Virus record (IMG/VR): IMGVR_UViG_3300022074_000081
Span: 1 to 47,460 of that record
Strand: one strand, 5' to 3'
Length of the DNA: 47,460 bases
Source of the DNA: a virus
Shown: positions 60-39,082 of the stretch, one piece after another
Layout: each line of letters opens with the position of its first letter
How positions within the stretch are numbered: position 1 is the first letter of the stretch
Program-made: the position numbers and the translations under genes
The notes under the pieces: model-generated
Database searches by the model: none
The model's input: the letters and a program-made list of their open reading frames with translations, nothing else
What the model was told of the DNA's origin: nothing

Positions 60-275
60 TCACTTTAGTTTATTCTGGTAGAGAATCCGGATGTAGTATT
101 TTCTAATGATAGATACCAAAAGAAATATGCTGGTCTGAATAAAGCTGGTTATCAGGGTAGACAAGCCAACCATTTTGCATATTGAGAGAGTAGTGAAGCC
201 AACAGGAAAGGCAATCAACAGGCCTAAGAATACATCATGTAATGTTTCTTTGAGTGCCGGTTTGTCGATTTCCAT
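60..275 (-). CDS. Small phage membrane protein (DUF7220-like)
   Basis: Protein of 71 aa when started at the ATG at 275. An open frame continues upstream to 362, but that longer version would translate through the terminator hairpin at 317-347, so the start at 275 (TAGAG upstream) is preferred. Two hydrophobic stretches (about residues 14-30 and 36-55) are followed by the basic end SIIRKYYIRILY. The pattern of a Glu-Thr near the N-terminus, two membrane segments and a closing S-I-x-R-x-Y resembles small phage membrane proteins annotated DUF7220; this is from memory, not a search. Function unknown. If the genome is circular, this gene is the first of the leftward late arm, ahead of the gene starting at 47375. 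Confidence 0.55.
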   Translation of the reverse strand: MEIDKPALKETLHDVFLGLLIAFPVGFTTLSICKMVGLSTLITSFIQTSIFLLVSIIRKYYIRILYQNKLK

Positions 276-316: not shown

Positions 317-386
317 AAAAAAACCCCCCAGATTGCTCCAGGGGGTTCAACTTCACTAGCAATGAAGTCTCTAACTAGGAGAGAAC
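317..386 (-). ncRNA. Candidate 70-nt three-hairpin small RNA
   Basis: Three back-to-back hairpins fill this stretch on the minus strand. The first has stem 369-372/380-383 (loop CCTAGTT), the second stem 350-355/363-368 (ACTTCA/TGAAGT, loop TTGCTAG). The third is a terminator-type hairpin (322-328/341-347, AACCCCC/GGGGGTT) followed by seven Ts (323-317). A promoter at 391-419 would start transcription near 386. A short structured RNA is thus bounded by its own promoter and intrinsic terminator. The first loop and its flank contain UCUCUCCU, complementary to Shine-Dalgarno sequences. Alternatively it is an attenuator leader for the 60-275 gene. No family recognised; the prediction is from eye-read pairing only. 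Confidence 0.5.
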
Positions 387-390
387 TTAT

Positions 391-419
391 ATGATATACG
401 ATTACATTTATTATGACAA
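391..419 (-). promoter_or_regulatory. Sigma70-like promoter, leftward
   Basis: Minus strand TTGTCA (419-414), 17-nt spacer, TATCAT (396-391). Predicted start near 386, exactly at the beginning of the three-hairpin RNA. Its -35 lies only 5 bp from the -35 of the rightward integrase promoter, so the two would compete for polymerase. Confidence 0.5.
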
Positions 420-424
420 TAGTA

Positions 425-452
425 TTGACAAGTATTATTTGATAGGTATATT
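425..452 (+). promoter_or_regulatory. Sigma70-like promoter for the integrase/early arm
   Basis: Perfect TTGACA at 425-430, 16-bp spacer, TATATT at 447-452. Predicted start near 459, about 30 nt before the integrase ATG. The box TGACAA occurs twice with a 12-bp period (414-419 and 426-431) across the divergent -35 elements and may be an operator; that is inference. Confidence 0.65.
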
Positions 453-488
453 CTGATGTTCACATAACTAAAACACTAAGGAGTGATT

Positions 489-1562
489 ATGAAAGTCAAG
501 TATCTACAGATTAGAGAGAGGGCGAATGGCAGGAATGTCTTTGCAGTAAGCCCACCGAAGTATGTTCAAGACGCAATAGATGTCGGATATGAGCAGTATG
601 ACAACAAAAAAGACGCTACAAACAGGGCTATAGAGGTAGCTGATGCCTTTAAACAGCACAAAAAAGGCAATAAAATAGATGTTTCTATCAAACAGGATAC
701 TGTAGAAGGCCTGATTTTATTCTATCAAGGCACTAATGAATGGTCTAAGCTAAAGGATAACACTAAAGCTCTCTACACTTTGATGATACGAACAGCACTA
801 GATACTCGTATTGGGGAATCTAAGATTCTATTCAAAGACTATCTAGCTAGAACTATTACCCCTACCCATGCTGACAAATTGTATGACATCATAACCAAAG
901 ATGTTAGTAGACATAGGGCTGTGCATACAGTCAAGGTTCTTCGTAAGATATGGTTTGTAGGTAAACGCCATTCCAAAGTTCAATCTAATCCTTTTGAGAA
1001 GATGGGCATTAAAGGTTTAGATAGCAGAACTGTTTTATGGACACCCGAACAGGTATCAGCCTTCATTGCTAAAGCAGATGAGCTAGGTAAACATTCTTTA
1101 GGCACTATGGCATTACTTTGTTATGATCTATGCCAACGCCCCGGAGATATGAGACAGCTTACCTGGAGTAATTTTGATGGCAATAGCTTTCGTTTCATTC
1201 AAGAGAAAACAGATACGCAGGTAAACATACCCGGCTCTCCTAGATTGATTGCTAGAGTAGACAATGGGAAGACTAATAAACCTCAAGATGAGCCTATTGT
1301 TATCTGTGAGAGTACAGGGAAAGGATATGACAGAAGGTTATATTCTAAACACGCTGCCACCATTAGAGATCAGGCAGGACTACCTAAAGAACTGAAGATT
1401 AGTGATCTAAGGAGAACAGGTGCTACCGAGATGGCTGAAAGTGGATGCACAGAAGATGAGCTTAGATCAGTAACAGGCCATCAATCAAGAGATGTCTTAT
1501 CAATATATGTAAGACCTACAGATAAATTAGCCGAAAAAGGCATAGAAAAGAGGTTTGGATAA
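489..1562 (+). CDS. int: Tyrosine recombinase (phage integrase)
   Basis: Site-specific recombinase of 357 aa that would join phage and host DNA at att sites. A GTG at 483 is possible, but it lies inside the AAGGAG at 478-483, so the ATG at 489 is chosen. The C-terminal catalytic domain shows box I Arg217 (LCQRPGDMRQLTW), a likely beta-hairpin Lys240, box II SDLRRTGAT with Arg308, His331 in TGHQS, and the nucleophile Tyr340 in LSIYVRP. The usual first His of box II (HxxR) is Ser305. Residues about 65-165 look like a SAM-like core-binding domain. It is the first gene of the rightward arm, with its own promoter at 425-452. No repressor gene is recognised beside it, so whether the phage is truly temperate is open. 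Confidence 0.93.
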   Translation: MKVKYLQIRERANGRNVFAVSPPKYVQDAIDVGYEQYDNKKDATNRAIEVADAFKQHKKGNKIDVSIKQDTVEGLILFYQGTNEWSKLKDNTKALYTLMIRTALDTRIGESKILFKDYLARTITPTHADKLYDIITKDVSRHRAVHTVKVLRKIWFVGKRHSKVQSNPFEKMGIKGLDSRTVLWTPEQVSAFIAKADELGKHSLGTMALLCYDLCQRPGDMRQLTWSNFDGNSFRFIQEKTDTQVNIPGSPRLIARVDNGKTNKPQDEPIVICESTGKGYDRRLYSKHAATIRDQAGLPKELKISDLRRTGATEMAESGCTEDELRSVTGHQSRDVLSIYVRPTDKLAEKGIEKRFG

Positions 1563-13072: not shown

Positions 13073-13149
13073 GTTCTCGTAGCTCAACTGGATAGAGCAT
13101 CGGCCTTCTAAGCCGAGGGTTGCAGGTTCGAGTCCTGCCGAGAACGCCA
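13073..13149 (+). tRNA. tRNA-Arg (UCU anticodon), CCA encoded
   Basis: Full cloverleaf: acceptor 13073-13079/13139-13145, all seven pairs (GTTCTCG/CGAGAAC); D-stem GCTC/GAGC; anticodon stem TCGGC/GCCGA with loop CTTCTAA, giving anticodon TCT at 13107-13109; T-arm GCAGG-TTCGAGT-CCTGC; discriminator G13146 and CCA at 13147-13149. It reads AGA and AGG, which are the dominant Arg codons in the genes here, so it probably supports phage translation. It lies alone in the convergent junction, after the early terminator. An intact tRNA gene could also mark an attachment site, but the integrase is 11.5 kb away, which argues against that. Confidence 0.96.
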
Positions 13150-38068: not shown

Positions 38069-39082
38069 CTATCTTCCCATTAAACCTTTAACAAATAGTT
38101 TTATAATAGAACTATCTCCAAGTTCCATCATATCTATATCGTCTTTTTCTGTTGGATAGGATTTAACTCCTTCAGAGTCTTCTTTAAGATCCATACCCTC
38201 TTCTTCAACAGAGACTTCAACTTCTTCTACATTACTAGAAGCCATTAACTCATCATGATTTTGTTTGGCGTATTCGTTAGCTTCTTTTTTAGTTTTAAAC
38301 TCTTTAACTTTGTTGCCATCATTATCATAAACACAATACATTCCTGTATCTTCATTTTTTTCAACATGATCGGTTGGATTCATTTCATAGTCTTCATCAT
38401 ATTCTTCTTCTGATTCTTCTTCATTTAAAGATACAATTTGACCTTCTGCCATCATAGACATAAGACCCATCTTTGCTTCCATACGCATATCTTCATACGC
38501 TTTTAGACCATGATACCTGACTACATCAGCAGGAATAACTAATTCGCCTTCAGATAAAGCAGCAGGAATATCATCACGAACATTCTCTGCATCTGAACCT
38601 GGTGGAATTTCATTTCCTGAAACCTCATCAATACCTACGATCATCTCTGGCATCATCATACCACCATGATACATTTCTTTTTTCATTTTTTTATTCATTG
38701 TCTCCCCACTCATAAGTCCTTCATTTGGTTCTGGACTATAAAATTGATTAAACCCAGAGTCTTGTGGGCCTTTATAATTCTGTGAAAAATTATCTGCTTC
38801 TACTATAGAATCAAATTCTATATACTCTCCTGTAGTACGAGCATGATTCTTAGCTTCTTCTAAAGATAATTTAGTAAGCTCTCCTTCTTCTGTTTCAATA
38901 ACTCTAGGAAATACTGCTGGTATTTTATCTTCTTCTCCTAAAAATTCAGCACTCATAAAATGAGTTTGTTTTTGTCCTTCTACTATTAAAGGCTCTGGAG
39001 CATTTTCTGGATTCAATATTCTTTGAACAAAGTTTTTAGTTCGATGTTCTTTTAGAATTTTATCTATTTGTTCTTGATCCAT
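38069..39082 (-). CDS. Probable minor virion protein between portal and scaffold
   Basis: 337 aa. The N-terminus contains FVQRILNPENAPEPLIVEG. The middle has GSDAENVRDDIPAALSEGE followed by LVIPADVVRYHGLKAYEDMR, a motif frequent in structural proteins of marine podoviruses. A later 40-residue block (GMYCVYDNDGNKVKEFKTKKEA) looks like a small beta-beta-alpha module. Long acidic segments separate these parts. Gene order suggests a head or packaging-related structural protein; exact role unknown. Confidence 0.7.
   Translation of the reverse strand: MDQEQIDKILKEHRTKNFVQRILNPENAPEPLIVEGQKQTHFMSAEFLGEEDKIPAVFPRVIETEEGELTKLSLEEAKNHARTTGEYIEFDSIVEADNFSQNYKGPQDSGFNQFYSPEPNEGLMSGETMNKKMKKEMYHGGMMMPEMIVGIDEVSGNEIPPGSDAENVRDDIPAALSEGELVIPADVVRYHGLKAYEDMRMEAKMGLMSMMAEGQIVSLNEEESEEEYDEDYEMNPTDHVEKNEDTGMYCVYDNDGNKVKEFKTKKEANEYAKQNHDELMASSNVEEVEVSVEEEGMDLKEDSEGVKSYPTEKDDIDMMELGDSSIIKLFVKGLMGR

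Follow-up and report, generated by a model that had tools for sequence, protein, structure and literature searches.

The sRNAs of the alpha-r8 family (MmgR, SisA-D; RF00519) combine a terminator with a single-stranded UUUCCUCCCU of anti-Shine-Dalgarno (anti-SD) character (PMC12559287), and those of the alpha-r14 family (NfeR1; RF02344) consist of hairpins that present anti-SD motifs in their loops and vary strongly in their stems (PMC10746234). The anti-hemB family (Burkholderia RNA 7, RF02837) is built, like the unit in relatives of the phage described here, from a hairpin with a UCuCCUCCCUG loop, a further hairpin and a terminator; we found no function for it in the literature examined. Among enterobacterial phages, AsxR, AgvB and C4 are known as short phage-encoded regulatory RNAs (PMC12559287; PMC12197685). 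AsxR and AgvB antagonise host sRNAs, and neither is an anti-SD unit linked to an integrase gene. C4 is described as an antisense RNA, which also sets it apart from such a unit. The sequence comparisons below point to a real, conserved family of phage sRNA genes, of which the copy analysed here is a derived member. The RNA libraries and literature that we searched do not list this family, and the term small RNA is not used in the literature that we examined on the HMO-2011-type group of phages.

The window, that is, the whole 47,460-nucleotide stretch of viral DNA analysed, is from a marine HMO-2011-type podovirus, judging from its terminase: TerL is 65–68% identical to those of the nearest roseophages, CRP-3, CRP-212, CRP-235 and CRP-738, and 58% identical to that of HMO-2011. 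The nearest isolates infect Rhodobacteraceae. The integrase of the window is 57% identical to that of CRP-235, and a blastn search against the phage collection returned no DNA match to the window. A tRNA was the only match at the cut-off in an Rfam search of the window. An intact tRNA-Arg (TCT) lies at 13073–13149 (+), where the early and late gene blocks converge, and roseophage CRP-7 has been reported to carry a tRNA-Arg (TCT) as well (PMC6918029).

The initial annotation had described a TTGTCA-17-TATCAT promoter on the minus strand, followed by 70 nt with three stem-loops, the last of them an intrinsic terminator, and our analysis bore this out. The predicted promoter (391–419 (-); TTGTCA at 419–414, a 17 nt spacer, TATCAT at 396–391) matches the consensus at 10 of 12 positions. 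Its boxes are identical in three close relatives (L001–L003), and promoter-like sites lie 5' of hairpin 1 in nearly all relatives; since such sites are common in the region (14 found vs. 11.3 expected), the promoter match by itself is weak evidence. The putative sRNA, about 70 nt with predicted ends at 386 and 317 (-), is supported by its fold, by its conservation and by a match to the covariance model R1 introduced below. The 70 nt at 386–317 (-) fold with –27.6 kcal/mol (z = –3.34), and none of 200 shuffled sequences was as stable; the plus strand of 317–386 folds less markedly (z = –2.03). Hairpin 1 (369–383 (-), CUCUCCUAGUUAGAG) is weak and carries the anti-SD-like UCUCUCCU; it is a derived form of a CUCCC hairpin present in the relatives. 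Hairpin 2 (351–367 (-), CUUCAUUGCUAGUGAAG) is conserved across clades. The intrinsic terminator (317–348 (-), GAACCCCCUGGAGCAAUCUGGGGGGUU plus a T-run) has a stem of 12 pairs at 348–321 and a TTTT tail, and is the best terminator of the region.

On the other side, the predicted integrase promoter (425–452 (+), TTGACA-16-TATATT, 11 of 12 matches) stands back to back with the sRNA promoter, the two facing in opposite directions with five bases between the integrase promoter and the sRNA –35 box. A GTCAA box (TTGAC on the integrase strand) is present in the integrase leader of 59 of 60 relatives. The tyrosine integrase gene (489–1562 (+); phrog_1, E = 2e-28) has an SD sequence, AAGGAG, at 477–482, and its start is most likely ATG 489 rather than GTG 483. 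Between the integrase promoter and the ribosome-binding site, TTAGTTATG recurs at 454–482 (+) of the window and in the integrase leaders of relatives, some of which also carry an inverted ATAACTAA 15–25 nt from TTAGTTATG; these elements could possibly form an operator or a leader hairpin. A scan of species genomes of bacteria and archaea, about 85,000 in all, yielded a single weak integrase relative (L150, 29%) and none that was close, so integrated copies look rare. Past the sRNA terminator, outside the sRNA unit, lies a gene for a small protein (63–272 (-); phrog_4276, E = 8e-9, function unknown). In L002 and L076 its place is taken by other genes, which by eye look methyltransferase-like, as in a cargo slot.

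Relatives were gathered through integrase searches and from annotated isolates, which together supplied about 68 different upstream regions of sufficient length for assessment. A unit of promoter, hairpin(s) and terminator, divergent from the integrase gene, was found at the same place in about 62 of these, among them the isolates CRP-3, CRP-235 and CRP-212. This homologous position indicates that the unit is more than a chance arrangement, and the original proposal of a free-standing RNA with its own promoter and terminator beside the integrase promoter is strengthened by it. Five lineages (L015, L082, L085, L087 and L093) lack the unit. Scans of parts of CRP-738, CRP-345 and HMO-2011, which have more distant integrases, did not reveal it either. 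The units of the relatives measure 68 to about 150 nt and have one to three hairpins ahead of the terminator, which was identified by eye in L077, L078 and L084 and by script in the others. A descriptor consisting of a CUCCC hairpin and a terminator located the unit in nine of nine near-complete phage genomes, with three extra matches in total over the nine, and matched 0.17 times per resampled genome. Different relatives have different genes past the terminator, and in the CRP isolates these genes are convergent, which argues that the unit stands alone.

Within the window clade (the window, L001–L003 and L076), the sRNA of L001–L003 is 98.5–100% identical to that of the window, compared with 80–91% for the integrase. 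Between the window and L003, the sRNA is identical at 69 of 69 positions, the integrase gene at 80% and the 3' flank at 67%; the corresponding values for L002 are 67 of 68, 81% and 68%. A covariance search across related podoviruses had been suggested as a check, and compensatory stem changes are indeed present in two further clades, B (L006–L009, L088, L089 and L094) and F (L011, L111 and others). We assigned clades by eye ahead of alignment, took structures from folds of single sequences and counted cells by sequence, not by event; the pairing figures therefore support the structure and are not exact probabilities. In clade B, 9 of 40 pairs had changed on both sides among six distinct sequences and 99.2% of cells paired, as high as in no shuffle and compared with 31–42% in slid controls, and in clade F pairing was 100%, with three pairs changed on both sides.

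R1, a covariance model of clade B built without the window, found the window unit at 428–318 with 31.7 bits (E = 3.4e-7). Of its 24 matches, 23 fell on sRNA units (the window and 22 others), crossing into other clades (among them L077/L078/L084, L090, L079 and CRP-235, as well as two clade F members). The top match, in L166, was considered as a second sRNA and rejected, as it is the terminator of an early operon, nested in the same way and preceding a tRNA. Model R2, of clade F, detected other clades weakly. Terminators with a nested inner hairpin and the loop (A/G)CUAACC or CUGACC occur at the sRNA in L006–L009, L077, L078 and L084, and the same type is found at the end of the early operon before tRNA-Arg at L166:8784–8840 (-).

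CUUCAUUGCUAGUGAAG, the hairpin that links the window clade with clade B, has an invariant TTGCTAGT and variable flanks. Hairpin 2 is identical at 17 of 17 positions in L006–L010, L035, L036 and L059, despite integrases that are only 54–55% identical, and variants of it occur in L005, L076, L077, L090 and L099. Its shape of 5+7+5 resembles a tRNA anticodon arm; as a guess, the conserved UUGCUAG hairpin may serve stability or protein binding. The initial annotation had placed CTAG in the first two loops and suggested that these pair loop to loop. Both hairpins do carry CTAG, but in the predicted fold of hairpin 2 it is part of the stem, with GCU as the triloop. Hairpin 1 of L076, clade B and L005 is without CTAG, so the pairing is not conserved and the loop–loop contact is unsupported.

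Complementarity to SD sequences, noticed earlier in the first stem-loop of the window, turned out to be conserved in the family. Ahead of the terminator, CUCCC or CCUCC is unpaired in 34 of 44 non-redundant units, compared with 6.7 when the bodies were shuffled, and the usual loop, (U)UCCUCCCUG, is complementary to SD sequences. In the window clade, the short hairpin 1 reads UCUCUCCUAG, without CUCCC and still complementary to AGGAGA. In the window itself, the predicted stem of hairpin 1 has only 4 bp (CUCU/AGAG), and with this weak hairpin half of UCUCUCCU lies inside the stem, which qualifies the earlier claim for the window copy. By comparison of these sequences, the window clade has a derived form of the family sRNA, with UCUCUCCU and no CUCCC. 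Since the loop matches the ribosome start sequence in most relatives, the RNA probably switches off messages. The unit also has, by sequence, the own promoter and intrinsic terminator of the trans-acting anti-SD sRNA class.

Among the described RNAs, anti-hemB is the closest: its best sub-threshold match sits on the sRNA unit in most phages with a match (contig coordinates converted by hand). The phage matches score 11–26 bits and the window 21.3 bits (single-genome E = 2.7e-4), below the cut-off of 49.5. The anti-hemB layout of CCUCCCUG-loop hairpin, hairpin and terminator is found in relatives, whereas the window has no CCUCCCUG; anti-hemB is also, unlike the phage unit, a betaproteobacterial chromosomal RNA. 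A covariance search with alpha-r8 (RF00519) brought none of 39 phages to the cut-off of 41 bits and gave no match in the window, and the weak alpha-r8 matches in phages lie mostly away from the sRNA unit. Motifs like those of alpha-r8 do occur in relatives (UUUCCUCCCU in L013, CUUCCUCCCU in clade B). Where alpha-r8 has its single-stranded UUUCCUCCCU after a weak hairpin, however, the window has UCUCUCCU, and near matches are confined to other clades. Alpha-r14 RNAs have three hairpins, each with CCUCCUCCC, whereas the phage units usually have one motif and the window has no CCUCCUCCC; the best alpha-r14 score among relatives was 22.8 (L109), against a cut-off of 58.8. Membership in alpha-r8, alpha-r14 or anti-hemB was rejected because all scores fall below the family cut-offs. 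A CRP-3-like phage contig carries a predicted Hammerhead type II ribozyme (L143:191–273 (-), 38.8 bits vs. a cut-off of 37).

The sequence itself shows the promoter, the hairpins and the terminator, their conservation, compensatory changes, and their constant position next to the integrase promoter, and we consider it reasonably probable that 386–317 (-) encodes a free-standing, trans-acting anti-SD sRNA of this marine HMO-2011-type podovirus. The hairpins might instead belong to the next gene to the left as its 5' leader, with controlled read-through of the terminator, an arrangement that would suit the window clade, where the next gene runs in the same direction (in the window, about 45 nt past the terminator). 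This gene is replaced in the close relatives L002 and L076, however, while the sRNA unit stays identical, and in CRP-3, CRP-235 and CRP-212 the next gene is convergent. There is no leader peptide, and the 5' part contains nothing that could form an antiterminator fold by pairing with the C-rich 5' arm of the terminator. We believe that attenuation of this kind is improbable.

Less credible still is a role of the locus as a DNA site, with the CTTCATTGCTAGTGAAG palindrome as the attP core or as a binding site of integrase or repressor. Most sRNA units have no CTTCATTGCTAGTGAAG palindrome and the other hairpins show RNA-type compensation, even though CTTCATTGCTAGTGAAG is invariant beside the tyrosine integrase in several clades and has the shape of a crossover site (arms of 5 bp around a spacer of 7 bp, as in a tRNA anticodon arm). 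Nor does CTTCATTGCTAGTGAAG run on as a tRNA 3' half, none of which is present at 351–367. CRP-3 integrates in tRNA-Met (PMC6918029), and CRP-3, CRP-235 and CRP-212 each have a tRNA-Met 3' half (GGTTCAAATCCT..CCCGCAACCA) in front of the primase gene, at about 2.8–3.2 kb (L151 near 3194, L152 near 3021 and L153 near 2834, all (-)) and some 2.8 kb from the sRNA. This half site is evidently attP in the three phages, matching the published integration of CRP-3, and together these data rule out an attP core at the sRNA hairpin in the three CRP isolates. A search for attP of the window phage itself did not find it.

As a trans-acting anti-SD sRNA, the RNA would be transcribed by host RNA polymerase and would end at its own terminator. 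Through its C-rich loop, which reads CUCCC in most relatives and UCUCUCCU in the window clade, it would pair with SD sequences and thereby lower translation of selected mRNAs, as reported for alpha-r8 and alpha-r14 sRNAs. From the design shared with these RNAs (anti-SD loop, variable stems, terminator and own promoter), we infer a trans-acting blocker of ribosome binding. Its targets would more probably lie in the host, among mRNAs or among sRNAs and their sponges, than among phage mRNAs. In the class to which a Methyloceanibacter MAG belongs (Alphaproteobacteria), 52 of 96 sampled genomes contain alpha-r8 RNAs, so the hosts probably own RNAs of this kind.

Regulation of phage genes, in which the loop would block the start of the tail fibre, integrase or another phage mRNA, appears unlikely. 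The fibre SD, CAGGGAG, is complementary to CUCCCUG, and the fibre ranks first or second among start regions in CRP-235, CRP-3 and CRP-212; this attractive candidate was dropped for lack of co-variation: where the motif changes in other clades, the fibre SD does not change with it. The fibre SD also overlaps the coding end of the preceding gene. The integrase start region ranks low as a target. A window gene at 38069–39082 (-) could form 10 pairs with the sRNA (AGGGGAGAAC), which 1.7% of shuffled cores equalled, and is a lead only. A comparison of own with swapped sRNAs was null overall and per gene: in the permutation test, which took in 31 gene groups from 8 genomes, the own value was –8.93 kcal/mol compared with –9.02 kcal/mol for permuted ones (fraction 0.72). 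In the target search by SD complementarity proposed at the outset, no phage start region, that of the integrase included, co-varied with the loop. Since phage mRNAs show no co-evolution with the loop, the targets of the anti-SD sRNA are perhaps host mRNAs.

It is possible, though doubtful, that a dedicated anti-SD RNA in this lineage of abundant marine phages imitates alpha-r8 and alpha-r14, rewires host translation and sets the outcome of infection. The RNA might also act in lysis–lysogeny or early–late control, as proposed initially. An abundant ocean phage group would gain an RNA-level regulator that has so far apparently gone undescribed, and the covarying sRNA beside the integrase gene would offer a concrete, testable control element in cultured phage–host pairs, namely CRP-3, CRP-235 and CRP-212 on FZCC0040. 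The finding suggests that anti-SD riboregulation, which is widespread in the alphaproteobacterial hosts, has been acquired or re-invented by their phages.
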